Source: Saccharopolyspora gregorii
GTDB taxonomy: Bacteria; Actinomycetota; Actinomycetes; Mycobacteriales; Pseudonocardiaceae
DNA: 64,000 bases
Assembly: GCF_024734405.1 (NCBI RefSeq)
Contig: NZ_CP059556.1
Location: forward strand, 2,232,001 to 2,296,000
Reading direction: 5' to 3'
The notes under the pieces: generated by a model
Told to the model about the DNA's origin: nothing
The model's database searches: none
The model's input: the letters and a program-made list of their open reading frames with translations, nothing else
Translations under genes and position numbers: made by a program
Shown here: positions 8,214 to 56,756 of the stretch, piece by piece
How the letters are laid out: each line of letters opens with the position of its first letter
How positions within the stretch are numbered: the stretch's first letter is position 1

Positions 8214-8254
8214 CGCACCGGTCGCGCGGGTCGTTCCGGCCCGCGCCCCGGCTC

Positions 8255-8281: not shown

Positions 8282-8375
8282 TCGAGCTCGTGGCACCGGC
8301 TCGTCGGACCGGCCGCGTCCCCGCCTGATGTCGCCCCAACGGGCGACGCCGCGGCGCGCCCGGTAGACGTGTGGC

Positions 8376-28814: not shown

Positions 28815-29198
28815 CTAGTCGCCGTCGGCCGCCCGTGCGGCCCGGTTCGCGAGCACCGCGCCGTGCAGCGCGAACACCAGCAGCAGCACCAGACCCGCGT
28901 TCGGCGCCACCAGCGCCACCGGCAGCGGGAGAACGCCCTGGACGTGCGCGATCGTGCTCATCGCGGTGAGCAGTCCGGCGGCGTAACCGGTGCGCGCCGC
29001 CTGCAGCAGCCGCGGCTCCGCGGCTCGGTGCCCCGCCGCCCACGCGGCGTCCGAGGCTTGCGTCGCCCGCGTCCGGATGCCGACGAAGTGGTTGCGGCGC
29101 AACGTTCCGCGCGAGCTCAGTCGCTGGATCAGGTGCATCGCCCAACCGGTGAACACGAGCGTCACCGCGTACAGGGCCAGTGCTGCGGCGTCCGGCAA
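28815..29198 (-). CDS. SdpI-family membrane protein
   Basis: About 127 residues with three or four hydrophobic segments. The SdpI family signature lies between them: RRNHFVGIRTRATQASDAAW, followed by AGHRAAEPRLL. SdpI of Bacillus is the immunity protein for the SDP toxin, but most family members are untested. The TTG start has GGAGG about 8 bases upstream; a GTG at 29234 would add 12 residues. It lies 71 bases downstream of the lantibiotic exporter permease on the same strand, so it may be the last gene of the lantibiotic operon and help protect the membrane. That link is inference. Confidence 0.75.
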   Translation of the reverse strand: MPDAAALALYAVTLVFTGWAMHLIQRLSSRGTLRRNHFVGIRTRATQASDAAWAAGHRAAEPRLLQAARTGYAAGLLTAMSTIAHVQGVLPLPVALVAPNAGLVLLLVFALHGAVLANRAARAADGD

Positions 29199-29269
29199 CG
29201 CGGCCCCCTCCGCTCGACGTCGGTCCCCGGTCACCCAAGCCGACGGCGGGCGCGGACGTCAACCTCCGG

Positions 29270-30154
29270 TCAGCCGGTGCGGGCGAACCGGCGGCTGATG
29301 GCGACCAGCGCCAGCACCGAGAACCCGAGCACCACGGCGATCTCCACCGGTGGCGGGACTTCCCAGCCCGCCCACTCCACCGGCGAGAAGATCACCGAGG
29401 AGTGCTCCTGCCCGAGCCGCCCGAGGACGGCGTGGCGCATCGCGTCCACCGCGTAGGTCAGCGGGTTCACCACCGTCAACGCCACCATCCACCCGGGCAT
29501 CGCGCTGATCGGGAACATCATCCCGGACAGGAACACCAGCGGTGTGATCAGCACGGACAGCACGGTGTTGAACGTCTGCACCCGCTTGATCGCGACGGCC
29601 ACCCCGGCGGCGAGCACCGTCAGCGACAGCGCGGCGATCGCGATCTCGGCCAGCAGCACCGCGAACAGCACCGGGTCGTAGGGCACTCCGACCAGCCCGG
29701 CGGTGAGCAGCACGACCGCGCTCTGCGCCGTCGCCACCGTCGCACCGCCGAGGCACTTGCCGAGCAGCAGCGTGCCGCGGAACACCGGCGCCGCCAGCAT
29801 CTCCCGCATGAACCCGGTCTGCCGGTCCCACACGATCGACGCCCCCACCGAGATCGCCGGCGCCTGCGCCGCCATCACCAGCACACCGGGGAACAGGAAC
29901 ACCAGGTAGTCCTCCGCCGTCCGCGCCCCGCCCGCCCCGTCGGCCAGCAGCCGGGACAGGCCGATGCCGAGCACGTACAGGAACAGGAACGGCGGCAGCA
30001 GCGACACCGCGACCCGGGTGCGGTCCCGCAGGAAGTGCAGCAGTTCCCGGCGCCACACCATGCTCCCGGCCCGCCACTCCCGCGCGAGCCGGCCGCTCCG
30101 TTCGGCGTCCTGTTCGGACGGTGCTGCGGTCCGGGGCGGTGCGGTGCTGGTCAC
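29270..30154 (-). CDS. cinH: Lantibiotic ABC exporter, membrane subunit (CinH-type)
   Basis: A 294-residue ABC-2 type permease with six hydrophobic segments. It has the DrrB-like pattern VWRRELLHFLRDRTRVAVSL, FLFPGVLVMAAQ, VWDRQTGFMREMLAAPVFR and PLVFLSGMMFPISAMPGW, VNPLTYAVDAMRH. It follows the ATPase gene by 25 bases and lies at the end of the cin-like structural operon. With the ATPase it should export the cinnamycin-type peptide or remove it from the membrane. The leader has a signal-peptidase-like site and the ATPase has no peptidase domain, so cleavage and export appear to be separate events. The gene name is assigned by position and similarity to the cinnamycin cluster. Confidence 0.88.
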   Translation of the reverse strand: MTSTAPPRTAAPSEQDAERSGRLAREWRAGSMVWRRELLHFLRDRTRVAVSLLPPFLFLYVLGIGLSRLLADGAGGARTAEDYLVFLFPGVLVMAAQAPAISVGASIVWDRQTGFMREMLAAPVFRGTLLLGKCLGGATVATAQSAVVLLTAGLVGVPYDPVLFAVLLAEIAIAALSLTVLAAGVAVAIKRVQTFNTVLSVLITPLVFLSGMMFPISAMPGWMVALTVVNPLTYAVDAMRHAVLGRLGQEHSSVIFSPVEWAGWEVPPPVEIAVVLGFSVLALVAISRRFARTG

Positions 30155-30179
30155 GCGGTCTCCTCAACGGCCGTGGGGA

Positions 30180-31163
30180 TCAGGGGGCGGGCACGCCGGG
30201 GACGTCCCGGATGGCGCGGCCGGTGTAGTGCAGGAACACCTCGTCCAGGCTCGGCCGGGTCACCGTCACCTCGAAGATCGGCACGTCCAGGCCGGAGCAG
30301 AGCACCGGCACGAACCGCGCTCCGTCGGACACCTGCACCTGCACGCCGCCGTCCGCGGTGGTGGCCTCCAGGTCGAAGCGCTCGCGCAGCACCCGCACGG
30401 CCGCGTCGTCGTCGCCGGTGTGCAGCGCGATGCGGTCCGCGCCGATCACCGACTTGAGCTCCGCCGGGGTGCCCTGCGCGACGATCCGGCCCGCGTCGAT
30501 GATCGCGATCCGGTCGCACCGCTCCGCCTCGTCGAGGTAGTGCGTGGTGAGGAAGACCGTGGTCTCCTCCTGCTCGGCGATCCGGTGCAGGTAGGTCCAG
30601 ATCTCCGCGCGGGTCTGCGGATCGAGGCCCACGGTCGGCTCGTCGAGGAACAGCACGCTCGGCCGGTGCAGCAGGCCGCGCGCGATCTCCAGCCGCCGCC
30701 GCATCCCGCCGGAGAACGTCGCGACCCGGTCCGCGCGCCGCTCCCGCAACCCGACCAGGTCGAGCATCGAGTCGACGCGCTCGGCGACCAGCGCCCGGGG
30801 CATCGCGTACAGGTCGGCGTGGAAACCCAGGTTCTCCGCGGTGGTCAGGTCCGGATCGAGCGTCGATTCCTGGAACACCAGGCCGAGCCTGCGCCGCACC
30901 TGGTGCGCGTCGCGCACCACGTCGTACCCGGCGATCTCGATGCGCCCCGCATCGGGCAGCGCCAAGGTGCACATCATCGCGATCGTGGTGGACTTGCCCG
31001 CGCCGTTCGGCCCGAGGAAGCCGAACGTCTCGCCGCGGGCCACGGTGATGTCGACGCCGCGCACCGCGTGCGTCCCGCGGTAGGACTTGTGCACGTCGCG
31101 GGCCACGATCGCGGGTGCGTCCTCGGGGCGGTGGTGGTCGTCGCCTCGCCGGAGTCGTCGCAC
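30180..31163 (-). CDS. cinT: Lantibiotic ABC exporter, ATPase subunit (CinT-type)
   Basis: A 327-residue DrrA-like ATPase. Walker A is FGFLGPNGAGKSTTIAMM (near residue 50), with a Q-loop in LGLVFQESTLDPDLT, the signature ATFSGGMRRRLEIARGLLHR, and Walker B in VLFLDEPTVGLDPQT (near 171). The C-terminal extension (DRPSLDEVFLHYTG-like ending VTVTRPSLDEVFLHYTGRA) is typical of drug exporters. The GTG start has GAGGAG 5 bases upstream. It powers the CinH-type permease encoded next. Located directly after the hydroxylase gene, as in the cinnamycin cluster. Confidence 0.92.
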   Translation of the reverse strand: MRRLRRGDDHHRPEDAPAIVARDVHKSYRGTHAVRGVDITVARGETFGFLGPNGAGKSTTIAMMCTLALPDAGRIEIAGYDVVRDAHQVRRRLGLVFQESTLDPDLTTAENLGFHADLYAMPRALVAERVDSMLDLVGLRERRADRVATFSGGMRRRLEIARGLLHRPSVLFLDEPTVGLDPQTRAEIWTYLHRIAEQEETTVFLTTHYLDEAERCDRIAIIDAGRIVAQGTPAELKSVIGADRIALHTGDDDAAVRVLRERFDLEATTADGGVQVQVSDGARFVPVLCSGLDVPIFEVTVTRPSLDEVFLHYTGRAIRDVPGVPAP

Positions 31164-31210
31164 GGGTGCTCCTCGCTGCTGTCGAACGGCCGGGGTGCGC
31201 GGCGATCCCG

Positions 31211-32119
31211 TCACGCGGCGCGCAGGCTGCCCAGGTGGTCCTGCCAGTCCTCCGGCACCACGAAGCCGAAGCTCCAGCGGTGCCGTTCGGTCGGGTTCAC
31301 GATGCAGTGCCAGAACAACCTCGCCGGGTCCTGCTCGGCCTTGAAGAACCGCACGATCCTCCGGCGCTCCGGCAGCGTCACGATCTCGCCGGTGCCCGGG
31401 TTCTGGTAGCGGAAGAAGGAGGTGCCGCCGCCTTCGGGGAAGTCGTCGTCGAGGTCCACCACGTACATCCGCCAGCCCGGCTGGTTCTCGTTGGTGTGCC
31501 ACAGCCGGTAGCTGTTCGGCGGGTACCACATCGAGCCGGACAACCGGATCTCGTCGCCGAACACGCCTTCCAGCAACCGGATCGCCCGCGTCTTGGCGGC
31601 GAAGTACGCGGGGTAGCCGGGGTGCTCGACGTGCTCGTCCAGGTTCACCAGGTGGAAGTCCCGCCGCGCGCCACCGCCGGCCGGGTCCTGCCAGTGCGCG
31701 GCCATCATCCGGCGGTTCCACTCCTGGAACTCGGGATCGGACGGGGACTTCGAGGTCGATTCCAGGTCGTCGGCGCGGAACCGGGCGCGGAACGCCGCCA
31801 GGTCCACCGGGGGACGGACCTTCAGCAGCGGCAGCTCGTCGATCAGCGGCGCCAGCTCCGGCACGTCCGCCAGGTCGTACTCGTGGTGGTAGAAGGCCGT
31901 TCCCCGTGGCGGCGCCGGTTCGTCGGCGGCCGGTTCGGGCGTGGTCTCCGCGCCGAGCTCGGCGGATCCCGCGGCCAGTTCCTGGGCGGTGAAGTCGAAC
32001 CCGTGCCTGCCGCCGAGCGCGATCATCTCCTCCATCCCGGTGACGGCCTTGAGCTGCTGGCCGAGTTCCGGCTGCTGCCTGGTCGCGCGCAGGAAGCTCT
32101 TGCAGGCTTCGACGGTCAT
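31211..32119 (-). CDS. cinX: Nif11 domain fused to 2-oxoglutarate/Fe(II) oxygenase; CinX-type Asp hydroxylase
   Basis: A 302-residue protein with two parts. Residues 1-60 (MTVEACKSFLRATRQQPEL, then AVTGMEEMIALGGRHGFDFT) match the Nif11 leader-type domain. After an acidic, Pro-rich linker, the C-terminal part looks like an Fe(II)/2-oxoglutarate oxygenase: MWYPPNSYRLWHTNENQPGW (His near 208), MYVVDLDDDFPEGGG, FWHCIVNPTERHRWSFGF (His near 271, Arg near 281). In cinnamycin biosynthesis CinX hydroxylates Asp15 of the core, and the core here keeps that Asp. The Nif11 part may bind the leader peptide. AAGGAG precedes the ATG by 6 bases. Function is assigned from cluster position plus the oxygenase motifs. 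Confidence 0.88.
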   Translation of the reverse strand: MTVEACKSFLRATRQQPELGQQLKAVTGMEEMIALGGRHGFDFTAQELAAGSAELGAETTPEPAADEPAPPRGTAFYHHEYDLADVPELAPLIDELPLLKVRPPVDLAAFRARFRADDLESTSKSPSDPEFQEWNRRMMAAHWQDPAGGGARRDFHLVNLDEHVEHPGYPAYFAAKTRAIRLLEGVFGDEIRLSGSMWYPPNSYRLWHTNENQPGWRMYVVDLDDDFPEGGGTSFFRYQNPGTGEIVTLPERRRIVRFFKAEQDPARLFWHCIVNPTERHRWSFGFVVPEDWQDHLGSLRAA

Positions 32120-32226
32120 GGCGGTCTCCTTCGTCCGGTGCGGGTGGCGGGTCGCTGCCCGCCGGGTCGCTGGGATGCCGGGATTCGGTGGTGGGGCGGG
32201 AGGTTCGGGGAAGCGGCGGGCGGTGC

Positions 32227-35200
32227 TCACGGTCGCGGCGGGTCGAGCATCAGCACCGAGGGCACCCGTTCCGGGTGCGCGAGCCGCAGGAAGTGCATGC
32301 CGTAGCCGGAGATCCCCATCATCAGCCCGGGGAAGAAGTCGGCGCTCTGCTCGCCGAGGCCGTGCTCGGCGTCGTCCAGCGAGCGCCACATCTCGCGCAC
32401 CTGCACGTTCGCCTCCAGCCGGAACGCGGGTTCGTCGCGCAGCAGCGCGTAGCGCAGCAGCAGCTCCGAGTTGCCGGAGGTGCCGTGGCACAGCGTGTGG
32501 TTCTTCAGCCGGGAGAAGTTGCGCACGGTCGCCCCCAGCGCGTGCCGCGCCTCCCGCAGCAGCTCCTCGTCGTCCGCGCCCAGCAACGACCAGGCGGCGA
32601 TGCGGCTCAACCCGATCCCGGCGGCCCCGTTGCACCACGCGTTGGAGTAGTGGTGGCCGTTCTTCGCGACCTGACCCGTGTCGTAGCGCAGGTCGTACCA
32701 GTCCTGCTCGTCGAGGTCGAAGTGCCGCGCCTCGTAGGCGAAGGCGCTCCTGCCCGCCGCGACGCACTCGTCCCGGCCGGTGCGGGTGCCCAGCAGGACC
32801 AGCGCCCAGCCGATCCCGGCGGCGCCGTGCGCGAACCCGGTCATGTCGTCCCGGGCGTGTTCCGGGGTGTTGGACGGCCAGCTCACCGCGCCGTCCCGAT
32901 CGCGGGCGCGCCGCAGCAGGTGGTCCGCGCAGCGGTGCGCCAGGTCCAGCGCCTGATCCCCGAGCAGCGGCTCCAGCGCCAGCAGCACCGGGATCATCCC
33001 GGCGGCCCCGTGCAGCAGGTCCAGGTGGGTGTCGGCGTCGATGAGCTCGGCCAGGCCGTCGCACGCCCGCACGGCCTCGTCCACCAGTTCCTGCTCGCCC
33101 CACAACCGGTGCAGGTGGGTGAGCAGGTACAGCCGCCCGCCGACGTCGGCGAACGCTCCGGTGCGCTGCGGCGGGGTGTCGAGGACGTGCCGCAGCGCGC
33201 GCCGCGCGGCCCGCCGGAACTCGGGGCGCGGCACCACGTCGTCCAGGTAGGCGAGGAACAGCGCCACCCCCGCGGTGCCGGTGTAGAGGTCCGCGTCGAT
33301 GTCGACGGACTCCAGCACGCCGTCGACCCGACCGAACGACTTCCACGGCGCCGGAGCCGGCGGTTCCAGCTCCATCGAGCACAACCGCTCGCCGGCCCGC
33401 ACCGCGTAGTCCAGCGCGGTGGCCACGAACGCGGGGCTGCTGATCTCGTCGCTCGACAGGCTGGCGGCGATGTAGCGGGCCTGCTGCGCGCGGTTCTTCG
33501 CGGTGAGCGAGCGGATCCGCTCCGCGGCGCGCTCCAGCGGGGAACCGTCCAGCGCGGTCGGCAGCCGTTCCGCGCGGTCGTGCACGAGGTGGTCGTCGCC
33601 CACCTCGACGGTGAAGACCGGCACGTCCAGCCGCCACATCGACGCCGTCTCCCGCGCCGAGAGCACGGCGTCGCGGTCCCATTCGCGGGGGAAGGTGCGC
33701 ACCGTGTTCAGCAGCAGGTCGACCTCCAGCGGGTCGGCCAGGCACTTCGGGTGCCGCGCGGACGCGATCAGCTGCGCGTAGATCTGGGTGCTCCAGTTCA
33801 GGAACCGGGCGGAGGCGCCGCGGAACGCCTCCGAGACCAGGGCGACCGCCTCGTCGGCGTTGCGCTCCAGCCACTCGTGCACCCGGTCGAAACCGTCCAC
33901 GATGGACTCCAGGTGGTCCTGCGGGTGGACGAGCTCCCCGTGCAGGAAGACCCGGTTGGTGGCGTCGAGCTCCACCCGCACGCCCGACCGGTTCCGCACC
34001 GCAGCGCCGAAGCCGAGGCGCCCGCCGACGATCTGCGGCACCGGCATCGGGATCTCGTAGCTCTCGCCGCCGCTGCACCCGCTCAGCCGCATCTGCTCCG
34101 GGCCGTCCGCGGTTCCGGCGCGCGGCCACTCCAGCAGGCCCGTCTTGAACACCGAGTCCTGCACCGTTCCACTGCCGCCGCGGCCCAGCGGCGACGCGTC
34201 GAACACCGTCTCCCCGTCGCACACGTGGACGTGGCCGTCGGCGACGATGATGTTCTCGAAGTGCAGGTCGCTGCCGCCGAGCACGTAGAACAGGGCCAGG
34301 TGGCCGCCGAGCTCCCGGTACACGTGCGCGGCCGCTTCGGCGGTGCCGGTCTCGTTGCGCCCGGTCGGGATCGCGGCCTCGTAGCCGTAGCCGTCGCGCA
34401 CCAGCACGGGCCGGGAGGCGAACTCCACGACACCCCGCTCGCGCAACCGGTCCAGCACGGCCTGCACCCCCGCCTCGGAACGCAGGCAGCGCGGCTTGCA
34501 GTAGAACGTCCCGGTCCCGCCGTCGTCGAGCTCGGCGGTCACCACCGCGACGCTGCGCCCGCCCGCGTGGTAGTCGCCGGTGCCGAGCCGCAGCGAGCGG
34601 AACGCGACGATCGACCGGCCGAACAGCTCCGGCCCGAGCCGCGCCGCGTCGGCCGCCAGGTTGCGCAGCAGGTCCGCGCCGTAGCCGGCGATCAGCCCGG
34701 TCAGGTGGGCCAGCCAGCGCCCCAGCACCGGGTACTCCAGGAAGAACTCGTGGTAGGCGGCGGAATCGGCGAACGTCGCGTCCAGGTAGGCGAGGTAGTC
34801 GTCCTCGCCCGCCCGCTCCCGGTCGATCCCGCGCCGCGCCCGGTGCAGGTTCGCCTCGGCCTCCACCACCCAGGCCAGCGCCAGCGCGAACCTCCCGTGC
34901 AGGTGGCGCTGGAGGTCGTCGACCAGGTCCGGCCCGATCGACTCCGGCAGCTCCGCGCGCACCTTCTCCAGCCTGCGCCCCAGCTCCACCAGGAACGGTT
35001 CGCAGGCGGTGGCCAGCTCGCCGTAGTAGACGTCGGTCTCCCGCCACGTCGCGCGCGGGTCGGAATGCGCCGGGTCCCAGCCGAGCACCGCGTCGCGGTA
35101 GGTCGGCAACCAGGCCGCGTGCAGCTCCTCCAGCAGCTCCGGCAGGCCGGGGCCGGCCGGGTCCAGCTCGACGGCGCGGTAGGCGGTGAGCACCGCGGCG

Positions 35201-35424
35201 AGCTCCTCGGCGGTGTGCCGGGCGGGCCGCGCCCGGTTCTCGGCCTCCTGCGCGAACTTCCCGGCGAGCCGTCCGGCGACGCGGTCCAGCCGCCACCGCT
35301 CGACCGCGTCGGGCGGTGCCGCCGCGAGCGGCCGCCCCGAGTCGCGCAGCGCGGTGACGACGTGCAGCCGCTCGTCCAGGTTGCTCGCGCGGGCGGCCAG
35401 ATCGAGTGCTCGGTCGGTCTGCAT
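32227..35424 (-). CDS. cinM: Class II lanthipeptide synthetase LanM (CinM-type)
   Basis: A 1065-residue bifunctional enzyme. The N-terminal dehydratase (DUF4135 kinase-like, to about residue 630) has GDYHAGGRSVAVV, FYCKPRCLRSE, LGGSDLHFENIIV (near 384) and VCDGETVFDASP (near 405); it phosphorylates and eliminates Ser/Thr of the core. The C-terminal LanC-like cyclase (about 680-1050) has zinc ligands in NAWCNGAAGIGL (Cys near 931) and LCHGTSGNSELLL (Cys-His near 977), plus HGAAGI repeats; it adds Cys thiols to Dha/Dhb. The precursor lies 71 bases upstream and the hydroxylase gene follows. The start ATG is preceded by in-frame TTG and GTG (35430), so it may be two residues longer. Confidence 0.96.
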   Translation of the reverse strand: MQTDRALDLAARASNLDERLHVVTALRDSGRPLAAAPPDAVERWRLDRVAGRLAGKFAQEAENRARPARHTAEELAAVLTAYRAVELDPAGPGLPELLEELHAAWLPTYRDAVLGWDPAHSDPRATWRETDVYYGELATACEPFLVELGRRLEKVRAELPESIGPDLVDDLQRHLHGRFALALAWVVEAEANLHRARRGIDRERAGEDDYLAYLDATFADSAAYHEFFLEYPVLGRWLAHLTGLIAGYGADLLRNLAADAARLGPELFGRSIVAFRSLRLGTGDYHAGGRSVAVVTAELDDGGTGTFYCKPRCLRSEAGVQAVLDRLRERGVVEFASRPVLVRDGYGYEAAIPTGRNETGTAEAAAHVYRELGGHLALFYVLGGSDLHFENIIVADGHVHVCDGETVFDASPLGRGGSGTVQDSVFKTGLLEWPRAGTADGPEQMRLSGCSGGESYEIPMPVPQIVGGRLGFGAAVRNRSGVRVELDATNRVFLHGELVHPQDHLESIVDGFDRVHEWLERNADEAVALVSEAFRGASARFLNWSTQIYAQLIASARHPKCLADPLEVDLLLNTVRTFPREWDRDAVLSARETASMWRLDVPVFTVEVGDDHLVHDRAERLPTALDGSPLERAAERIRSLTAKNRAQQARYIAASLSSDEISSPAFVATALDYAVRAGERLCSMELEPPAPAPWKSFGRVDGVLESVDIDADLYTGTAGVALFLAYLDDVVPRPEFRRAARRALRHVLDTPPQRTGAFADVGGRLYLLTHLHRLWGEQELVDEAVRACDGLAELIDADTHLDLLHGAAGMIPVLLALEPLLGDQALDLAHRCADHLLRRARDRDGAVSWPSNTPEHARDDMTGFAHGAAGIGWALVLLGTRTGRDECVAAGRSAFAYEARHFDLDEQDWYDLRYDTGQVAKNGHHYSNAWCNGAAGIGLSRIAAWSLLGADDEELLREARHALGATVRNFSRLKNHTLCHGTSGNSELLLRYALLRDEPAFRLEANVQVREMWRSLDDAEHGLGEQSADFFPGLMMGISGYGMHFLRLAHPERVPSVLMLDPPRP

Positions 35425-35495
35425 CAACACCTGTCCCGGTCGGTGGTGGGCGAGGAACGCGGCGAGCCCGAAGGCTCACCGCGTCGATGCTCAGC

Positions 35496-35732
35496 TCACT
35501 TGGTCGAGCCGTCGCACGCGAACGTGAACGGGCCGGCGCTGCAGGTGCTGGCGCAGGCGACGACCTCGTTGGCCGCGATCCCCTTGGTCCAGAAGTCCAG
35601 GGACTCCTGGTCGACGGCCTCGACCGCGTCGGGCAGCTCGGCAGGCTCCACGCCGAAGGCGGCGGGGTCCGCGATGAGCGCGGAGCGGAACTCGGCGTCG
35701 ATGACGGCTTGGCGAAGAATGGTGTCGGACAT
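35496..35732 (-). CDS. cinA: Cinnamycin-type lanthipeptide precursor
   Basis: A 78-residue prepeptide. The leader (residues 1-59) resembles CinA, with AEFRSALIADPAAFG, DAVEAVDQESLDFWTK and a VVA ending suited to type I signal peptidase. The core, residues 60-78, is CASTCSAGPFTFACDGSTK. Cinnamycin is CRQSCSFGPFTFVCDGNTK, so Cys1, Cys5, Ser6, Gly8-Pro9-Phe10-Thr11-Phe12, Cys14-Asp15-Gly16, Thr18 and Lys19 are all kept. Expected rings are 1-18 and 5-11 methyllanthionine, 4-14 (methyllanthionine here, since residue 4 is Thr) and 6-19 lysinoalanine, with hydroxy-Asp15. The mature peptide should bind phosphatidylethanolamine. AGGAGG lies about 6 bases before the ATG. Confidence 0.97.
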   Translation of the reverse strand: MSDTILRQAVIDAEFRSALIADPAAFGVEPAELPDAVEAVDQESLDFWTKGIAANEVVACASTCSAGPFTFACDGSTK

Positions 35733-35764
35733 GATCTCCTCCTGGATGCTGGTGTGCGTTCGGA

Positions 35765-36136
35765 TCATTCGGACTTCTCGGCGGGCAGCTGCGCCACGAG
35801 GGCGAAACCCAGCTGCGCCTCCGCGTTCTTCAACTCCACGAGCGCTCGGCCCATGTTGTCGTTCTCGTTCTGCCAGGCGACGACCTCCTTCTCCTGCTCC
35901 GGTAGTCCCTCCGGCGACCACAGCTGCTCCAGCCACTTGTGGGTCGCGAAGGGGTGCAGGTCGGTGACCGGCGTGAGCCGGGCCAAGGTGGGCTCCTCGT
36001 TCAGCGCGAGGGCGAGCTGCAGCACCTCGCGCAGCTTGCCGTCCGGCGGCAGCAGCGAGCACAGGACCACGAGTTCCTGGATTCGCCGGATCACGTCCAC
36101 GTCCGGGTAGATGACCGGAACATCCGAGTGCTGCAT
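35765..36136 (-). CDS. durN: Lysinoalanine-forming protein (DurN/Cinorf7-type)
   Basis: A 123-residue protein and the first gene of the lantibiotic operon, 32 bases upstream of the precursor. Its size and position match Cinorf7/DurN, which catalyses the last ring: addition of the Lys19 amine to dehydroalanine-6. Recognisable features are the N-terminal VIRRIQELVVLCSLLPPDGK and the middle HPFATHKWLEQLWSPEGLPE. The core keeps both partners, Ser6 and Lys19. GGGAGCG precedes the ATG. A promoter with three TTCA motifs at 11-bp spacing lies 40-80 bases upstream. Identification rests on size, position and partial similarity rather than a catalytic motif. Confidence 0.87.
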   Translation of the reverse strand: MQHSDVPVIYPDVDVIRRIQELVVLCSLLPPDGKLREVLQLALALNEEPTLARLTPVTDLHPFATHKWLEQLWSPEGLPEQEKEVVAWQNENDNMGRALVELKNAEAQLGFALVAQLPAEKSE

Positions 36137-36173
36137 CGACCGCTCCCAATCCGTCGGAGGCCCAACGCGACCG

Positions 36174-36220
36174 ACGCTAGGGGGCGGTGGTTTCAGTCCG
36201 CCTTCAAAGCTGTTTCACCG
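36174..36220 (-). promoter_or_regulatory. Predicted SARP-controlled promoter of the lantibiotic operon
   Basis: On the plus strand TTCA occurs at 36192, 36203 and 36214, exactly 11 bp apart (heptamers TTCAGTC, TTCAAAG, TTCACCG). On the minus strand they read as TGAA repeats, and the promoter-proximal one ends 9 bases before a -10-like TAGCGT (36179-36174). Direct repeats on one helix face next to the -10 box are the hallmark of SARP promoters. The start codon is about 37 bases further on. The matching SARP gene lies at 39.7-40.5 kb. Confidence 0.75.
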
Positions 36221-36280
36221 CAGGAGAACCGGCGTGGCGGCAGCGGGATCCGCCGCCGCGGCAGGAGGCTCGCGGTTCCG

Positions 36281-36931
36281 TCAGCCGGACTGGTCGGCCG
36301 CCCAGGCGCAGAGGGCGGCCTGCACCCGGTTGCCCACGTCGAGCGCGGCGAGGATGCGGCTCACGTGCGCCTTCACCGTGCTCTCCCGCATGCCGAGCGC
36401 GCTCGCGATCTCGGCGTTGCCGTCGCCCGTCGCCAACCGGCCGAGCACGTCCCGCTCCCGGGGGGTGAGGCGTTCGATCTTCGCGCGCGCCGCGGCGGAA
36501 TCCGGTCCGCTGCCCCGGTGGTAGTGGTCGACGAGCCGCCGCGCCGCCGCCGGGTGCAGCATCGCCTGCCCGCTCGCGACGACCTGCACGGCGCGCACGA
36601 TCTCGGCGGGTTCGCTGTCCTTGAGCAGGAACCCGGCGGCGCCTGCGGTCAGCGAGCCGTACACGTACTCGTCGAGGTCGAAGGTGGTGAGCGTGACGAC
36701 CTGCGGCGGGTTCGGCAGCGCGCGCAGGCGCTCGGTGGCCTGGATGCCGTCCAGCTCCGGCATCCGCACGTCCATCAGCACCACGTCGACCTGGCCGGCC
36801 GCGGCCTCCCGGACCGCGCTCAGCCCGTCCCCGGCCTGCCCGACCACGGTGATCCCCGGTGCGTCGGCGAGGATGTCGGCGAGCGCCAGGCGGACCAGCG
36901 TGTCGTCGTCCACGATCAGCGTGCGGATCAT
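36281..36931 (-). CDS. NarL/LuxR-type response regulator (CinR-like)
   Basis: A 216-residue regulator. The receiver domain has VDDDTLVRLAL, the phospho-acceptor Asp near residue 54 in VVLMDVRMPELDG, and FLLKDSEPAEIVRAV with the conserved Lys. The C-terminal LuxR-type helix-turn-helix is LTPRERDVLGRLATGDGN, then EIASALGMRESTVKAHVSRI. The ATG start overlaps the kinase stop (ATGA), so the pair is co-translated. The cinnamycin cluster also carries a two-component pair. Likely target: lantibiotic or transporter genes, possibly in response to envelope stress from the peptide itself. Confidence 0.92.
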   Translation of the reverse strand: MIRTLIVDDDTLVRLALADILADAPGITVVGQAGDGLSAVREAAAGQVDVVLMDVRMPELDGIQATERLRALPNPPQVVTLTTFDLDEYVYGSLTAGAAGFLLKDSEPAEIVRAVQVVASGQAMLHPAAARRLVDHYHRGSGPDSAAARAKIERLTPRERDVLGRLATGDGNAEIASALGMRESTVKAHVSRILAALDVGNRVQAALCAWAADQSG

Positions 36932-38046
36932 GCTGCTCCCGAGGAGTGGGCGGGTGCCGGGATGCGCGCCGACAGCCGCCAGCCGCCGGTGCCCGAAGGG
37001 CCGTGTTCCAGGGTGCCGTGCAGCGCGTCGACCCGTTCGGCCAGCCCCACCAGGCCGTAGCCGCTGGGCGAGTCCCGCTCCACCGGCGCGCCCACGTCGT
37101 TCTCCACGTCCACGGTGGACTCCGGCGGACCGTGCCGGACCCGGACCCGCACGGCCGAGCCCGGTGCGTGCTTGCGCGCGTTCGTCAGCGCTTCCTGCAC
37201 CAGCCGGTAGATGGCCAGCCGGTGGCTGAACGGCAGCTCCGCCGCGTCACCGGAGACCTCGGCCGCCACCGGCTGCCCGGCCGCCCGCGCCTCCGCGAAC
37301 AGCGCCTCCAGATCGCGCATCCGGCGCGGCTCCGGAACCCCGCCGCCGTCCGGCGAGCGCAGTCCCGCCAGCACGTCCCGCAGGTCGCGCAGCGCCTCCG
37401 TCGACGTCGCCCGCAGCAGGTCGATGCGGTCCGCGACCTGCGGGGGCAGCTCGGCCGAATGCCGTTGCAGCGCACCGGTGTGCAGCGCCAGCACGCTCAA
37501 CGAGTGCGCCAGCGAGTCGTGCAGCTCGGCCGCGACCCGGCCGCGCTCGGTCAACCGCGCCTGCTCCGCGCGCAGCTCCCGCTCCACCCGCAGCTGGTCG
37601 ACCTGCGCGGCCAGGCTCGCCACCAGCCGCCGGTGCCCGCCCGCCCACATGCCCAGCGCCACCACCGCGACCAGCAGCAGCAGCGGCCCGTACACCCGGG
37701 TGCCCCACAGCGAGTGCTGCGGCTGCAGCAGGTTCCCGCCCATCGCCGCGACCGCGCACACCGCCGCCACCACCAGCCTGCCGCGCTTCGCGCAGGAGTA
37801 CAGCACCACCAGCAGCGGCAGCACCGTCCCCAGCACCGCGGCCACCAGGACCGCGGGTACCGCCGCGACCGCCAGGTTCCGCCCGCGCCACGCGAGCGCG
37901 ATCCCGGCCAGCAGCACCGCGCCGACCTGCGGGCTCAGCACCACGCCGCCGGCGCGGACGTAGGCCTCCTGCCCGGACAGCAGCGAGACCGCGACGAGCA
38001 GCGCCGCCTCCACCCACCATCGCGTGCGCGGCTGTACCGCGGTCAC
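36928..38046 (-). CDS. Sensor histidine kinase, HisKA_3 type (CinK-like)
   Basis: A 372-residue kinase. The N-terminal ~150 residues form five or six hydrophobic segments with almost no extracytoplasmic loop, suggesting intramembrane sensing. The dimerisation/phospho-acceptor motif is RVAAELHDSLAHSLSVLALH (His near 176), followed by the degenerate NarX-type ATPase domain: YRLVQEALTNARKHAPGS, then SGYGLVGLAERV. The GTG start is chosen for AGGAG 7 bases upstream; a GTG at 38067 would add 7 residues. First gene of the two-gene regulatory operon, divergent from the phospholipid methyltransferase. Confidence 0.9.
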   Translation of the reverse strand: MTAVQPRTRWWVEAALLVAVSLLSGQEAYVRAGGVVLSPQVGAVLLAGIALAWRGRNLAVAAVPAVLVAAVLGTVLPLLVVLYSCAKRGRLVVAAVCAVAAMGGNLLQPQHSLWGTRVYGPLLLLVAVVALGMWAGGHRRLVASLAAQVDQLRVERELRAEQARLTERGRVAAELHDSLAHSLSVLALHTGALQRHSAELPPQVADRIDLLRATSTEALRDLRDVLAGLRSPDGGGVPEPRRMRDLEALFAEARAAGQPVAAEVSGDAAELPFSHRLAIYRLVQEALTNARKHAPGSAVRVRVRHGPPESTVDVENDVGAPVERDSPSGYGLVGLAERVDALHGTLEHGPSGTGGWRLSARIPAPAHSSGAA

Positions 38047-38133
38047 CGGGTTGCTCCTCGTCGCCACGACGGACGAGCATAGGGAGCCGCCGCCCCCCTA
38101 CTTTCGTACCGGATCTCCGTGGCCATGAGACCG

Positions 38134-38173
38134 ATGGTGCCCGTTGATCCCGCCAGTAGCGTGCAACGACGTG
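38134..38173 (+). promoter_or_regulatory. Promoter and probable leaderless start of the phospholipid methyltransferase
   Basis: TAGCGT (38157-38162) lies 8 bases before the GTG at 38171, with a weak ATGGTG 17 bases upstream of it. That spacing places the transcription start at or next to the GTG, so the mRNA is probably leaderless. The same TAGCGT hexamer occurs as the -10 of the lantibiotic operon; TTCA repeats are not visible here. Confidence 0.5.
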
Positions 38174-38851
38174 GACCCAGTGCAGACCAGCAGCAGCACG
38201 TCGCCCGGACGGTTCGCCTTCTCCCGCGAGGCGTTCCGCAGCTTCCGCGTCACCGGGGCGATCGCCCCCAGCAGCAGACGGCTCGCCGCCCGGCTCGCCG
38301 CGCCGCTGCTGCCGCCGCAGCACCGGCCACCGGCCAGGGTGCTCGAAGTCGGGGCGGGCAGCGGGGTGGTGACGCGGGAGCTCGCCGACCGGATCGGCCC
38401 CGCCGACCGGCTGGACGTCGTGGAGATCAACCCGCACTACGTGCGGATGCTCGACACCGCGCTGCGCACCGAGTTCGCGCTCTCCGCCGTCGCCGACCGG
38501 ATCGCGCTGCACGAGGTCTCGGTGCTGGACGCGCCGCTGGAACCGCGCTACGACGTGGTCGTCTCCGGGATGCCGTTCACCAACTTCGAACCCGAGCAGG
38601 TGCGGGCGCTGCTGGACCGGCACCTCGAACTGCTCGTTCCGGGCGGGCACCTCACCTTCTTCGGCTACCTCGGCACCCAACGGGCCCGCGCCCTGGTGAG
38701 CGGCCCGACCGAGTCGCGGCGGCACCGGGCCGCGATGGAGGTGGAGCGCGAGTTCGTCGAGCGCTACGGCCTCGGCCGCTCGACGGTGTGGTGGAACCTG
38801 CCGCCCGCGCACGTCTGGCACCTGCGCGCACCCGCGGCGGAGGACCGCTGA
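38171..38851 (+). CDS. cinL: Phosphatidylethanolamine N-methyltransferase, expected lantibiotic immunity
   Basis: A 226-residue SAM-dependent methyltransferase of the PmtA type. Motif I is VLEVGAGSGVVTREL (near residue 56), then VVEINPHYVRMLDTALRTEF, YDVVVSGMPFTNFEPEQVR, the phospholipid-methyltransferase region GGHLTFFGYLGTQ and SRSTVWWNLPPAHVWHL-type ending. In the cinnamycin and kyamicin clusters a homologous gene methylates phosphatidylethanolamine so the peptide can no longer bind the producer's membrane. The start is the leaderless GTG; TTG 38144 would add 9 residues. Overlaps the DedA gene by one base (TGATG), so the two are coupled. Confidence 0.88.
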   Translation: MDPVQTSSSTSPGRFAFSREAFRSFRVTGAIAPSSRRLAARLAAPLLPPQHRPPARVLEVGAGSGVVTRELADRIGPADRLDVVEINPHYVRMLDTALRTEFALSAVADRIALHEVSVLDAPLEPRYDVVVSGMPFTNFEPEQVRALLDRHLELLVPGGHLTFFGYLGTQRARALVSGPTESRRHRAAMEVEREFVERYGLGRSTVWWNLPPAHVWHLRAPAAEDR

Positions 38852-39753
38852 TGCCGTCACCGGCCGACTGGCTGGCGCAACTGCCGCCGCTGGCCGCCTA
38901 CGGGTTGCTCGCCGGGCTGGTGTTCACCGAAGGGATCCTGGTGATCAGCCCGTTCGTGCCCACGCTGGGGCCGCTGCTCGTCGCGGGCGCGCTCGTCTAC
39001 GCGGGGGTGCTGGAACCGTGGGCGGTGGTGCTGGCCGCTTCCGCCGGCGCGGTGTGCGGGGACGCGCTCGGCCACTGGACCGGGCGCCACCTCGGCCCCC
39101 GGCTGCGGGAGACCCGGTTCGCGCGTCGCGTCCCGCGCGCGTGGGACCGCGCGAGCGAGCTGTTCCGCCGCAGCGGCGGGCCCGCGCTGGTGCCGTGCCG
39201 GTTCGTGCCGCTGGTGCGGTCCGCGGCCCCGCACCTGATCGGCGCGTCCGGCCTGCCCTACCGCCGGATGGCGCCGTGGAGCGCGCTCGCCGGGGTGGTG
39301 TGGGCGTGCGGGGAAGGCAGCGTGGGCTACCTGGCCGGGGCGTCGTACTCGCGGCTGGCCGGGGCGTTCGGCGCGATCCCGGCCGTGGCGGTGCTCGTGC
39401 TGGTGGTGCTGGGGGTCGTGTACTGGCGACGGCGCGGCTCCGGTGGGGCGGACGGCTCGGACCGGTCGGCCGATGCGGCGGACCGCGCGGCTCCGGAAGG
39501 CGCGGAACCGAAAGGCGCGGGTCCGGAGGGCGCGGGTTCGGAAGGCGCGGCTCCGGACCGTGCGGGTCCGGAGGACGCTGATCCGGAAGGCGCTGGGCCG
39601 GCGGGCACGCGCCCGGACCGGGCCGATCCGGTCGGAGCGGGCACCGGGGCCGTGGAACCGGGCGTCGCGGACGCGGGGGGAGCGGACCGGCCCGGCCGCG
39701 CGGAGCCGCGGTACCGCGCGCAGCGGCGTCCCGGCCGCTACGACGCGGTGTGA
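38851..39753 (+). CDS. DedA-family membrane protein with repetitive acidic tail
   Basis: A 300-residue protein. The first ~200 residues form the DedA/VTT domain: LVFTEGILVISPFVPTLGPL, GAVCGDALGHWTGRHLG, and the conserved GPALVPCRFVPLVRSAAPHL with SGLPYRRMAPWSALAGVVWA. After the last helix (VAVLVLVVLGVVYWRRR) comes a ~95-residue hydrophilic tail containing ten five-residue repeats. DedA proteins are lipid transporters, and some Bacillus members move undecaprenyl phosphate or phosphatidylethanolamine between leaflets. Coupling to the PE methyltransferase in a PE-binding lantibiotic cluster suggests a part in immunity. Its 3' end overlaps the convergent SARP gene by 16 bases. Confidence 0.88.
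   Translation: MPSPADWLAQLPPLAAYGLLAGLVFTEGILVISPFVPTLGPLLVAGALVYAGVLEPWAVVLAASAGAVCGDALGHWTGRHLGPRLRETRFARRVPRAWDRASELFRRSGGPALVPCRFVPLVRSAAPHLIGASGLPYRRMAPWSALAGVVWACGEGSVGYLAGASYSRLAGAFGAIPAVAVLVLVVLGVVYWRRRGSGGADGSDRSADAADRAAPEGAEPKGAGPEGAGSEGAAPDRAGPEDADPEGAGPAGTRPDRADPVGAGTGAVEPGVADAGGADRPGRAEPRYRAQRRPGRYDAV
39487..39636 (+). repeat. Ten tandem 15-bp units in the DedA tail
   Basis: Each unit encodes Ala-x-Pro-Glu/Asp-Gly or a close variant (APEGA, EPKGA, GPEGA, GSEGA, APDRA, GPEDA, DPEGA and so on). The first units differ by few bases and later ones drift, consistent with expansion by slippage. The frame is kept throughout, giving an acidic, Pro/Gly-rich cytoplasmic or periplasmic tail. 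Confidence 0.85.
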
Positions 39754-40523
39754 AGCGGCGGCACCTGGTCGTCGCGCAGGATCGCCAGGTGCAGGTCGCG
39801 CAGCTGCGGTCCGGGCTCCACGCCGAGGCCGTCGCGGATGCGCGAGGTCAGCTCGGCGTAGGCCAGCAGCGCCTCCACCTTCCGCCCGCAGCGGTAGAGC
39901 GCGAGGAGCAGCTGCTGCCAGAACCGCTCGTGGAACGGATGTGCGGAGGTCAACGCCCGCAGTTCGCCGATGAGCTCGCGGTGGTGGCCCAGTTCCAGCT
40001 CCAGTTCGCCGCGCCGCTCCAGCGCTTCGATGCGCTGCTGGTGGATCCCGGGCACCACGTCGCGGTGCAGCGAGTCCGAGGCCACGTCCGGTAGCGCGCG
40101 CTCCCCGCGCCACAGCGCCAGCGCCTCGCCGAGGGCGGCGGATTCGCGGACCCGGTCGTGGGCGGCCTCCGCGGCGCGCGCCTGCTCCAGCAGCTCGGTG
40201 AAGCGGGCGAAGTCGAGGGTCTCCGGGGACGCCTGGAGCGTGTACCCGGCGCTGGAGGTGCGGATGAGGTCCGGCGCGCCGGACGCGTCCGCGATGGCGT
40301 GCCGGAGCCGGGTCAGGCAGGTGTGCAGCGCCCGGCGCGGCCGGCAGGGCGGCCGGGAGTCCCAGATCCGGTCCACGAGCTCGTCGACGCACACCACCTG
40401 GTTGAACTTGACCAGCAGCGCGGCGAGCAGGATGCGCTGCCTGGATCCGGGTACGTCGAGACATCGCCCGCCGCTCCCGACGGTGAGCGGGCCGAGGACG
40501 TGGAACGACAGCGGTTTCGTCAC
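39738..40523 (-). CDS. cinR1: SARP-family pathway activator (CinR1-type)
   Basis: A 261-residue activator. The N-terminal OmpR-like winged helix (about residues 1-95) has LSFHVLGPLTVGSGGRCLDV, SRQRILLAALLVKFNQVVCV and LHTCLTRLRHAIADASGAPD. It is followed by the bacterial transcriptional activation domain (about 100-250) with ALALWRGERALPDVASDSLH and HPFHERFWQQLLLALYRCGR. SARPs bind direct repeats with 11-bp period, and exactly such repeats precede the lantibiotic operon. The GTG start is chosen for family length; the frame is open for another 43 residues to an ATG at 40652. Convergent with DedA, sharing 16 bases. Confidence 0.93.
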   Translation of the reverse strand: MTKPLSFHVLGPLTVGSGGRCLDVPGSRQRILLAALLVKFNQVVCVDELVDRIWDSRPPCRPRRALHTCLTRLRHAIADASGAPDLIRTSSAGYTLQASPETLDFARFTELLEQARAAEAAHDRVRESAALGEALALWRGERALPDVASDSLHRDVVPGIHQQRIEALERRGELELELGHHRELIGELRALTSAHPFHERFWQQLLLALYRCGRKVEALLAYAELTSRIRDGLGVEPGPQLRDLHLAILRDDQVPPLHTAS

Positions 40524-52931: not shown

Positions 52932-55900
52932 GTGGCCAGGAGACCTCGCGGTGGGAACGGCGATGGTGGTGGTGATGCGCCGAGCAGGCCGTCGCAGCGG
53001 CACGGGAACATCGACGCGAGCAGCAGCGTCTCCGGCGCGCAGGACAGCATCCGGCAGACGGCGCAGGCCGGACGGCCCGGTGGGGGTTCGGGCCCGGCGT
53101 CGACGTCGAGCACGAGCGCGCCGCCCACCTCGGGCCGCCCGACCGGGCCGGAGCTCGGCGGATCCGACGTCGACTCGCCGAACGGCACGTCCCCGGCGGG
53201 CCGCAACGGCGCCCCGGACGACTCGTCGATCAACGGCAACAACCGCGGCGCCGACCGGGAACGGGTTCCCGCGGACCAGAAGAACACCTGCGGCGACCCG
53301 ATCGACATCGCCAGCGGCGACATGGTGCTCGCGCAGACCGACGTGGAGCTGGCGGGCGTGCTGCCGCTGGTGCTGCACCGGACGCACCTGTCGTCGTACC
53401 GGGTGGGGCGGCACTTCGGCCCGAGCTGGTCGTCCACGCTGGACCAGCGCTTGGAGGTCGAGGGGAACGAGGTGTCGTTCGCCGCCGACGACGGCACGCT
53501 GCTGTTCTACCCGCTGCCCGCCGACGATTCGCCGGTGCTGCCGCGCACCGGCCCGCGCCGCGCGTTGACCCGCACCGCGGACGGCTTCACGATCACCGAT
53601 GTCGAGCAGGGCCGCACGCTGCACTTCGGCGTCGGCCTCGGGCGCGCGGTGCTGCCGCTGCTGGCGATCACCGACCGCAACGGGCACCGCATCGACGTCG
53701 ACCGGGACGCGGCCGGAACTCCGCTGGAGATCCGCCACAGCGGCGGCTACCGCATCCGGGTCGACTCCGAGGACGGCCTGATCACCGCGCTGCACCTGCG
53801 GGAGGCGGCTGACGGCGACGACCTCCAGCTGGTGCGCTACGGCTACACCGGCCGCAGGCTCACCGAGATCACCAACGCCTCCGGCGTGCCGCTGACGTTC
53901 ACCTACGACGACGCGGGCCGGATCACGAGCTGGACCGACCGCAACGGCGCCTGGTACCGCTACGGCTACGACCACGAGGGCCGGGTCGTGCAGGCCGACG
54001 GTTCCGGCGGCTTCTTCAGCGGCACGATGTCCTACGAGGACGGGGTGACCCGCTGGACGAACTCGCTGGGGCAGCAGACCACCTACCACCTCAACGAACG
54101 CGGCCAGACGCTCCGCGAGATCAATCCCGCCGGCCACGAGGTCCGCTCCGAGTGGGACGAGTTCGACCGGCTGCTGTCCCGGACCGATCCGCTCGGACGC
54201 ACCGTGCGCTACGAGTACGACGAGGTCGGCAACCTGCTGGCCGCGACCCGCCCCGACGGTTCGCAGACCCGCTTCGAGTACAACGAGCTGCGGCTGCCGA
54301 CCACGGTGATCGCCCCGGACGGCACCGTGTCCCGCCGCGAGTACGACGAGCGCGGAAACCTCACGCGGGTGCTGGACCCGATGGGCGCGGTGACGACCTA
54401 CGCCTACGACGAGCACGGCCACCTCACCGCGATCACCGACGCGCTGGGCGGGGTGCGGCGCGTTGAAACGGACGCGGCCGGGCTGCCGCTCTCGATCATC
54501 GATGCCGCGGGGGCGACGACCCGGTACGAGCGGGACGGCTTCGGCCGCGCGTCGGCCGTGGTCGATCCGCTCGGCGGCACGACCCGGTTCGGCTGGACCG
54601 TCGACGGCAAACCCGCGTGGCGCACCCTGCCGGACGGCGCCACGGAGCGCTGGATCTACGACGGTGAGGGCAACCTCCGCACCCACGTCGACGCGCTCGG
54701 CCAAGCCACCCACACCGAGGTCACCCACTTCGACCTGCCCTCGGCGGAGGTGCGTCCCGACGGCACTCGCCTGGAGTTCGGCTACGACACCGAACTGCGG
54801 CTGACCAGCGTCACCAACGAGCAGGGGCTCGTCTGGCGCTACGACTACGACGAGGCCGGGAACCTCGTGCGCGAGACCGACTTCAACGGCCGCCAGGTCG
54901 CCTACCGGCACGACGCGGCCGGGCAGCTGCTGGAACGCACCAACGGCGTCGGCGAGACCACCACGTTCGTGCGCAACGTCCTCGGCGACGTCATCGAACG
55001 CCGCACCCCCGGCGCCACGACCACGTTCACCTACGACCTGGCCGGGCGCCTCGCCGAGGCGATGGACGGCGACACCCAGATCCGCTTCCAGCGCGACGCG
55101 ACTGGGCGGGTGCTCGCGGAGAGCGTCAACGGCCGCACCGTGCACTCCGCCTACGACGCCCTCGGCCGGCGGGTGCGGCGGAGGACGCCGTCCGGGGCGG
55201 AGAGCGCGTGGGAGTTCAACGCCGCCCACCAGCCCACCGCGCTGCACGCGGGCGGCCGGACGCTGCGCTTCGACTACGACGCCGCCGGGCACGAGACCTC
55301 CCGCGCGCTCGGCGCGAACGCCGTGCTCACCCAGGACTGGGACGCCAACCACCAGCTGCTGTCGCAGCACATCACCGGAGCCACCGGGCACCAGGTCCAG
55401 CAGCGCTCCTACCGCTACCGGGCCGACGGCCTGCTCACCGGCGTCAACGACACCCTCACCGGCCCCCGCACCTTCGAGCTGGACCGCGCGGGCCGCGTCA
55501 CCGCCGTGCAGGCCGGCGGCTGGACCGAGCGCTACACCTACGACGCCGCCGGGAACGTCACCGACGCGGCGTGGCCGGTGCCCGCGGGTTCGCCGGACGC
55601 CGATGCCGTCGGCGATCGCGAGTACTCCGGCACCCTGGTGCGCCGAGCGGGTGCGGTGCGCTACGAGCACGACGACCAGGGCCGCATGATCCTCCGCCAG
55701 CGCAGGCGGCTGTCGCACAAACCCGACACCTGGCGGTACTTCTGGGACGCCGACGACCGGCTGACCGGAGTGCTCACCCCCGACGGCTCCCGCTGGCGCT
55801 ACCGCTACGACCCGCTGGGCCGCCGCGTCGCCAAGCAACGCCTCGGGCCCGGCGACCGGGTGCTGGAGCAGGTCGACTTCACCTGGGACGGGGTGGTGTT

Positions 55901-56756
55901 GGCCGAGCAGGCGCACAGCGGTGGTGTGCCCGGCGGTCCTCGGTTCGCCGACCTGCACGTGACGGTCTGGGACTACGAGCCCGGCACGTTCCGCCCGCTG
56001 GCCCAGCGCGAACGGGCGCCGCTGCGCCACGCGCCGCAGCAGTGGGTGGACCAGCAGTTCTACTCGATCATCACGGACCTGGTCGGTTCACCCGCGGAGC
56101 TGATCAACGATCAGGGTGGAGTGGCGTGGTTCCACCGGACGACGTTGTGGGGCAACACCCTCGACCACAGCCGCACCGGCGCCTACACGCCCTTGCGCTT
56201 CCCGGGCCAGTACGCCGACCCGGAAACCGGCCTCAACTACAACTTCCACCGCCACTACGACCCGAGCACGGGGCGGTACGGCAGTGGGGACCCGCTGGGG
56301 TTGGCGGCGGGGCCTAGGCCCCACGGTTATGTATTCAATCCTCAGGCCCTCGTTGACCCCTTGGGGTTGACGGCGGAGGATTCTACTAGGTGGGTTGACC
56401 CAAACACGATTAACTTTTCCCAGCGCACCATTTCCGGCAATGACTACGCTGAACTGATGCGGCAGAATAAGTGGGATTGGAATCGGTCTGATGCTGCGCT
56501 GCATGTGCTTGAGGTGGACGGGCAGCTGGTAACGTATGACAATCGAAGGCTTGATGCTGCTCGTGAGGTGGGCACTCCACTTGTTCCAGTGCAGCAGGTC
56601 AACCCCAATGCTCCTCATCCTGACAGCAGTAAGGGGATGACTTGGCAAGAAAAGTTTGAGCAGCGATTCAACGATCGAAGAAACAAGAAGGCTGGTGGCG
56701 TGGTTCCTGACACGGGCCTTCGGGAAAGGCCAGCGAAGCCGGGGTGTAACAAGTGA
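52932..56756 (+). CDS. RHS-repeat polymorphic toxin with ParB-fold-like C-terminal tip
   Basis: A 1274-residue toxin. Residues 1-110 are a Gly/Pro/Ser-rich leader without a signal peptide. A DUF6531-type start follows (CGDPIDIASGDMVLAQTDVE, LVLHRTHLSSYRVGRHFGPS). Next come many YD repeats (YDDAGRITSW, YEYDEVGNLLAATRPDGS and others, to about 1060). The RHS core end is FPGQYADPETGLNYNFHRHY, YGSGDPLGLAAG, and a closing DPLGL at 1142-1146. The remaining 128 residues are the toxin tip: INFSQRTISGNDYAELM, ALHVLEVDGQLVTYDNRRLD, AAREVGTPLVPVQQV, FNDRRNKKAGGVVPDTG. The tip pattern resembles ParB/sulfiredoxin-fold toxins. Base composition falls sharply in the tip. The stop overlaps the immunity gene start. 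Confidence 0.9.
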   Translation: MARRPRGGNGDGGGDAPSRPSQRHGNIDASSSVSGAQDSIRQTAQAGRPGGGSGPASTSSTSAPPTSGRPTGPELGGSDVDSPNGTSPAGRNGAPDDSSINGNNRGADRERVPADQKNTCGDPIDIASGDMVLAQTDVELAGVLPLVLHRTHLSSYRVGRHFGPSWSSTLDQRLEVEGNEVSFAADDGTLLFYPLPADDSPVLPRTGPRRALTRTADGFTITDVEQGRTLHFGVGLGRAVLPLLAITDRNGHRIDVDRDAAGTPLEIRHSGGYRIRVDSEDGLITALHLREAADGDDLQLVRYGYTGRRLTEITNASGVPLTFTYDDAGRITSWTDRNGAWYRYGYDHEGRVVQADGSGGFFSGTMSYEDGVTRWTNSLGQQTTYHLNERGQTLREINPAGHEVRSEWDEFDRLLSRTDPLGRTVRYEYDEVGNLLAATRPDGSQTRFEYNELRLPTTVIAPDGTVSRREYDERGNLTRVLDPMGAVTTYAYDEHGHLTAITDALGGVRRVETDAAGLPLSIIDAAGATTRYERDGFGRASAVVDPLGGTTRFGWTVDGKPAWRTLPDGATERWIYDGEGNLRTHVDALGQATHTEVTHFDLPSAEVRPDGTRLEFGYDTELRLTSVTNEQGLVWRYDYDEAGNLVRETDFNGRQVAYRHDAAGQLLERTNGVGETTTFVRNVLGDVIERRTPGATTTFTYDLAGRLAEAMDGDTQIRFQRDATGRVLAESVNGRTVHSAYDALGRRVRRRTPSGAESAWEFNAAHQPTALHAGGRTLRFDYDAAGHETSRALGANAVLTQDWDANHQLLSQHITGATGHQVQQRSYRYRADGLLTGVNDTLTGPRTFELDRAGRVTAVQAGGWTERYTYDAAGNVTDAAWPVPAGSPDADAVGDREYSGTLVRRAGAVRYEHDDQGRMILRQRRRLSHKPDTWRYFWDADDRLTGVLTPDGSRWRYRYDPLGRRVAKQRLGPGDRVLEQVDFTWDGVVLAEQAHSGGVPGGPRFADLHVTVWDYEPGTFRPLAQRERAPLRHAPQQWVDQQFYSIITDLVGSPAELINDQGGVAWFHRTTLWGNTLDHSRTGAYTPLRFPGQYADPETGLNYNFHRHYDPSTGRYGSGDPLGLAAGPRPHGYVFNPQALVDPLGLTAEDSTRWVDPNTINFSQRTISGNDYAELMRQNKWDWNRSDAALHVLEVDGQLVTYDNRRLDAAREVGTPLVPVQQVNPNAPHPDSSKGMTWQEKFEQRFNDRRNKKAGGVVPDTGLRERPAKPGCNK

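Follow-up and report, generated by a model that had tools for sequence, protein, structure and literature searches.

A cinnamycin-type lanthipeptide gene cluster in Saccharopolyspora gregorii, very probably that of kyamicin

Gene content of the cluster

The window analyzed here is a 64-kb stretch of the Saccharopolyspora gregorii chromosome (NZ_CP059556.1, positions 2,232,001 to 2,296,000), and positions 28815-40523 of it hold a class II lanthipeptide cluster of the cinnamycin type that is complete and intact. In the open reading frame (ORF) listing of the window, all genes assigned to the cluster are intact open frames, and none is broken. Read from 40.5 kb downward, the chromosomal order is a SARP gene on the minus strand, orf11 and a methyltransferase gene on the plus strand, a kinase and a regulator gene on the minus strand, and then a minus-strand N-A-M-X-T-H unit. 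A preliminary description of this DNA had named a two-component pair, a DurN-type protein, a precursor, a LanM enzyme, an ABC exporter, and a SARP, and each of these is borne out by family matches in intact frames. A CinX homologue and a methyltransferase are also found, and the complete cinnamycin-type set proposed there is supported. Its N-A-M-X-T-H unit stands, while its placement of the remaining genes does not, as the SARP, orf11, and methyltransferase genes lie upstream of the two-component pair and not at the end. It also overlooked orf11 and left an SdpI-like gene within its boundaries unnamed.

The precursor gene kyaA (35496-35732, minus strand; 78 amino acids [aa]; published kya gene names are used throughout) matches PF19398 (E 1.6e-30) and NF033431 (105 bits against a 35-bit cut-off). 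Its core peptide is CASTCSAGPFTFACDGSTK (35499-35555, minus). In an alignment of 19 precursors, the window's included, the 19-residue core keeps Cys1, Ser/Thr4, Cys5, Ser6, Thr11, Cys14, Asp15, Gly16, Ser/Thr18, and Lys19, so that all ring residues are present. The leader ends in Val-Val-Ala before Cys1, whereas relatives mostly have Ile/Val-Tyr/Phe-Ala and the cinnamycin literature gives Ala-Phe-Ala. The relatives compared here were fetched with KyaX and with the DurN and precursor families and are therefore cinnamycin-type by selection; within that set, rather than in an unbiased LanM search, no best match outside the cinnamycin clade was seen.

The LanM lanthionine synthetase gene kyaM (32227-35424, minus; 1065 aa) matches DUF4135 (E 4.4e-69), LANC_like (E 4e-65), and TIGR03897 (494 bits against a cut-off of 304). 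Residues C931, C979, and H980, which we take to be the zinc-site residues, are kept in the window and in 18 relatives, and KyaM departs at 6 of 196 columns invariant in 18 relatives. No disabling mutation was seen in the precursor or in LanM. The predicted DurN-type lysinoalanine synthase KyaN (35765-36136, minus; 123 aa) matches PF19375 (E 9.8e-38) and PDB entries 6c0g, 6c0h, and 6c0y (E 4e-50), departing at none of 8 columns invariant in 17 relatives. KyaX (31211-32119, minus; 302 aa) departs at none of 46 columns invariant in 19 relatives and is 77% identical to its homologue in Saccharopolyspora sp. NFXS83. Thus, the invariant-column comparison gives no sign of function loss in LanM, DurN, or CinX. 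A CinX-type oxygenase had been proposed at this place; the gene is there, and KyaX is a putative CinX-type Asp15 hydroxylase by its homology and position, as Pfam and NCBIfam recognize CinX only through an N-terminal Nif11 domain (E 3.4e-12). No relative of CinX/KyaX with a solved structure was found.

The Nif11 domain spans KyaX residues 1-48 (31976-32119, minus) and was present in 18 of 18 homologues scanned, 4 of them cyanobacterial, out of 20 distinct homologues collected. An origin as a duplicate of the precursor leader is not supported by a profile comparison of 18 CinX N termini with 19 precursors, which returned a probability of 0.5% and 14 aligned columns. A literature search on Nif11, hydroxylase, and cinnamycin found no description of the domain in CinX, although the search was a weak one and we make no claim to a first report.

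The exporter is encoded by kyaT, a DrrA-type ABC ATPase (30180-31163, minus; 327 aa; TIGR01188, 320 bits against 312; frame from 31166), and kyaH, an ABC-2 permease (29270-30154, minus; 294 aa; PF01061, E 2e-26). Compared with 13 relatives each, the window departs at 0 of 107 invariant columns in T and 1 of 78 in H. The two-component pair comprises the sensor histidine kinase KyaK (36928-38046, minus; 372 aa, the published length; HisKA_3, E 5.9e-16) and the LuxR-type response regulator KyaR (36281-36931, minus; 216 aa; Response_reg, E 1.2e-24; GerE, E 7e-16), with departures at 6 of 142 and 1 of 117 columns, respectively, invariant in 7 relatives each. The SARP pathway activator KyaR1 (39738-40523, minus; 261 aa from a GTG at 40523; BTAD, E 3.9e-37; Trans_reg_C, E 2e-7) departs at 3 of 52 columns invariant in 11 relatives.

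The putative phosphatidylethanolamine (PE) methyltransferase KyaL, a candidate for self-immunity, lies at 38171-38851 on the plus strand (226 aa, with a longer frame from 38144; Methyltransf_25, E 3e-10). It shares 72-75% identity with its syntenic counterpart in three relatives from the genus and departs at 2 of 40 columns invariant in 9 relatives. It clears the cut-offs of generic methyltransferase models only, scoring 43 of 250 bits with PmtA, below the cut-off. The phospholipid methyltransferase named earlier is thus present as a methyltransferase gene, and its PE role is suggested by synteny and homology. Next to it lies kyaorf11 (38851-39753, plus; 300 aa), encoding a DedA/VTT-domain membrane protein (VTT_dom, E 5e-15, from 38854). 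A homologue occurs in all three other clusters of the genus, and orf11 is tabulated as non-essential in the kyamicin report (PMC6974636).

None of 14 control genomes matched the NF033431 precursor model, and among 397 genomes drawn from the order there were 2 that did, one of them the window genome, which argues that the cluster is not a product of chance. Together with the family scores and the synteny seen across three further genomes of the genus, the control genomes rule out a chance grouping or mis-assembly of unrelated genes. Judged from its frames and conserved columns, the cluster appears functional.

Predicted product and identity with kyamicin

Removing four waters from CASTCSAGPFTFACDGSTK and adding one oxygen, that is, four dehydrations and one hydroxylation, gives C76H108N20O25S3 with a computed [M+2H]2+ of 899.3551. 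Kyamicin, described in 2020 from ant-associated Saccharopolyspora strains KY3/KY7/KY21 (MK251551 and MK251553), has the formula C76H108N20O25S3 and a calculated [M+2H]2+ of 899.3551 (Table 2 of PMC6974636), with Thr4, Thr11, Thr18, and Ser6 dehydrated and Asp15 hydroxylated. As the formulas are identical, the cluster is very probably that of kyamicin itself. The dehydrated residues and the gene set, including orf11, are likewise shared with that report, and 9 of the 11 product lengths can be brought to the published values with a suitable start codon (N 123, A 78, M 1065, X 302, T 327, H 294, R 216, K 372, and L 226 aa). Three of the four published primers (both for kyaR1 and the 3' primer for kyaL) match the window at 16 of 16 positions in their gene-specific parts, and the chromosomes of the kyamicin strains, at ~6.33 Mbp, are close in size to the window genome (6,344,421 bp in one contig). 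Taken together, we consider it nearly certain that the window carries the kyamicin (kya) cluster and that its source is one of the strains KY3/KY7/KY21 or a Saccharopolyspora very close to them. The cluster is accordingly very probably not new, but already known and published as kyamicin. A novel peptide arising through Phe7 to Ala was considered and rejected, because kyamicin already has such a composition and position 7 varies among the cores of relatives (F, W, S, A, K, or V).

Several points weigh against this identification. Orf11 has 300 aa in the window against 295 in the published table, and KyaR1, which has an additional codon ahead of the published primer site, has 261 against 260, so the window may come from a strain other than those published. 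For several genes, the start codon was picked from alternatives so as to give the published length. The forward (5') kyaL primer, whose template was a synthetic construct, matches at 14 of 16 positions. The letters of the kyamicin core are printed in a figure only, and the formula match fixes composition and not order. Finally, the identification draws on formula, lengths, primers, and gene set rather than on a DNA alignment to MK251551 or MK251553.

In an alternative reading, a sister species carries a close but distinct cinnamycin-type cluster, whose core contains the same residues as kyamicin in a different sequence. The two deviating protein lengths would fit such a congener, as would the cores of the genus's three remaining clusters, which are different. 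The paper texts searched also lacked the exact core string, an absence that says little because the published sequence sits in a figure. Set against the exact formula, the published bridging residues, the nine matchable lengths, the primer sites, and the genome size, this alternative seems very improbable. It is also conceivable that the cluster is a decayed or silent remnant that yields no peptide. The wild-type KY strains gave no detectable kyamicin on 13 media (PMC6974636), and although many of the departures at invariant columns are conservative, non-conservative changes occur as well, from Glu to Ser in KyaR and from Pro to Leu and Arg to His in KyaK. However, every frame is unbroken, the modification enzymes depart little (6/196 columns in LanM, 0/46 in CinX, 0/8 in DurN), and the published cluster was switched on by expressing kyaR1 and kyaL (PMC6974636), which leaves the remnant explanation a negligible chance. 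With identity with kyamicin as the preferred reading, what has been recognized is a real antibiotic cluster, very probably one already characterized to product mass, structure, and heterologous production.

Likeness extends to other members of the family. Duramycin (dur), from Streptomyces cinnamoneus ATCC 12686, shares the DurN protein (PDB 6c0g, E 4e-50) and the ring-forming residues. The window core differs from the duramycin-type peptide of PDB 6c0h at unprocessed positions 2, 3, 7, 13, and 17; position 4, processed in 6c0h, is presumably Ser in duramycin and is Thr in the window, a sixth difference. Kyamicin is reported to be distinguished from cinnamycin and duramycin by 6 of its 19 core positions (PMC6974636), the same number as the window core shows against duramycin, in favor of the identification with kyamicin. 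The cinnamycin (cin) cluster of S. cinnamoneus has in common with the window the orf7(N)-A-M-X and T-H units, the KR pair, the PE methyltransferase (putative in the window), and the SARP, as well as a triple-repeat operator and an inverted repeat between A and M (PMC5408092); cinY, cinZ, orf8, and orf9 of cin are listed as absent from kya (PMC6974636). Divamide A, a cyanobacterial lanthipeptide, is described as having three methyllanthionines, lysinoalanine, and hydroxy-aspartate, but it is N-trimethylated and comes from a cyanobacterial symbiont, and the likeness is one of description, not of sequence (PMC9505594).

By analogy with these peptides, the product would bind PE. The cinnamycin-type family shares a hydrophobic stretch from Phe7 to Ala14 (PMC10092488), which Ala7 and Ala13 of the window core may weaken. 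Reported MICs against Bacillus subtilis, in micrograms per ml, are 128 for kyamicin, 32 for duramycin, and 16 for cinnamycin (PMC6974636).

Regulatory sites and a proposed pathway

Upstream of kyaN, a pattern search found a SARP operator-like site of three TGAAR repeats with 11-nt spacing (36191-36217, minus). Allowing up to one mismatch, no other match exists on either strand of the 64 kb, and 100 shuffles gave none. The cinnamycin cluster has been described as having a SARP and three 11-nt-spaced repeats upstream of orf7/N (PMC5408092). Within 260 bases upstream of N at 19 relative loci (18 distinct, as L010 and L036 are one contig), a strict triple-repeat pattern found nothing and a looser version hit two (L035 and L017); conservation of the operator across relatives is therefore undemonstrated. 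Between kyaA and kyaM, folding revealed an attenuator-like 13-bp hairpin (35456-35485, minus). The surrounding 76 nt (35425-35500) fold at -37.8 kcal/mol (z -3.15), and 2 of 200 shuffles did as well.

The pathway proposed here, its regulation, and PE binding are drawn from the cinnamycin, duramycin, and kyamicin papers and set on the genes, frames, core, formula, repeats, and hairpin observed in the window. SARP activation of N-A-M-X, A/M attenuation, export by TH, and KR-controlled immunity through PE methylation follow PMC5408092 and PMC6974636. KyaR1 would switch on kyaNAMX from the triple-repeat operator, with attenuation at the hairpin between A and M. KyaM would dehydrate Thr4, Ser6, Thr11, and Thr18 and close three methyllanthionine rings, KyaX would hydroxylate Asp15, and KyaN would join dehydroalanine 6 to Lys19. 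The peptide would be exported by KyaTH and its leader removed by a peptidase encoded outside the cluster. KyaRK may sense the product and turn on KyaL, which would methylate the producer's own PE and so confer immunity.

Relatives and neighboring genes

Counting the window genome each time, 4 of 6 genomes in the genus and 5 of 394 drawn from the class have DurN. All four clusters of the genus adjoin the same major facilitator superfamily (MFS) transporter gene, and three of the four adjoin the same GntR gene. The two genomes of the genus without DurN retain the MFS gene at 88% identity and have no close GntR homologue (best 34%). The core peptides of the other three clusters differ from that of the window, and the comparative value of the genus thus lies in a cluster whose cores vary while the adjoining transporter gene stays the same.

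A CinX homologue was found in 13 named loci, from 8 actinobacteria, 4 cyanobacteria, and 1 Sphingomonas; cyanobacterial cinnamycin-like members are a known kind, such as divamide A (PMC9505594). A LanM match lies beside each of the 13, and matches to N and A occur in 11. For one of the two exceptions, L012, the stretch begins 113 bases before LanM, which accounts for the missing matches. The other, L016 (Streptomyces morookaense DSM 40503, 7597-9888), has regulators, X, T, H, and the last fifth of LanM, with no N or A match, and looks like a deletion remnant. The cores of Cylindrospermum (L019, 5102-5341) and Dolichospermum (L020, 4879-5118) lack the Gly8-Pro9 pair, which is present in the other listed cores except the second copy in L018 (Gly8 without Pro9). 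L018, a metagenome-assembled genome of Oscillatoria princeps, carries two different cinnamycin-like precursors at one locus. In Actinomadura and Nocardiopsis (L014, L015, and L017), the precursors have one residue past Lys19 (Q, N, and P), so that only trimming would leave the lysinoalanine lysine at the C terminus. When viral contigs were scanned with KyaN, no relative was confirmed.

An SdpI/YfhL-family membrane protein gene (28815-29234, minus; PF13630, E 2.6e-9) follows kyaH by 35 bp and is an optional neighbor, not among the genes of the published kya table. A match lies beside H in two of the three other clusters of the genus, intact in L034 and apparently frame-broken in L036, with none in L035. 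Relatives of this gene turned up in 38 of 60 genomes sampled from the family, the window genome included, and an N-to-H construct without this gene yields kyamicin in Streptomyces coelicolor (PMC6974636). Because the three other clusters either lack it or have it in diverged form, and because it is common in the family and dispensable in the published construct, its status as a core cluster gene is not supported. This neighbor and the Nif11 domain of CinX are the two features lying outside the published kya gene table. It is a long shot that the SdpI-like protein is an unrecognized second self-protection factor backing up PE methylation in some Saccharopolyspora kyamicin-type clusters and that the Nif11 domain is a docking module bringing the hydroxylase to the LanM-precursor complex.

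Elsewhere in the window, after an ORF ending at 52895, positions 52932-56756 (plus) encode a large protein with many YD-type repeats, which by eye resembles RHS proteins. It looks like a polymorphic-toxin locus. Behind this gene, at 56-58 kb, the GC content drops to about 62%.

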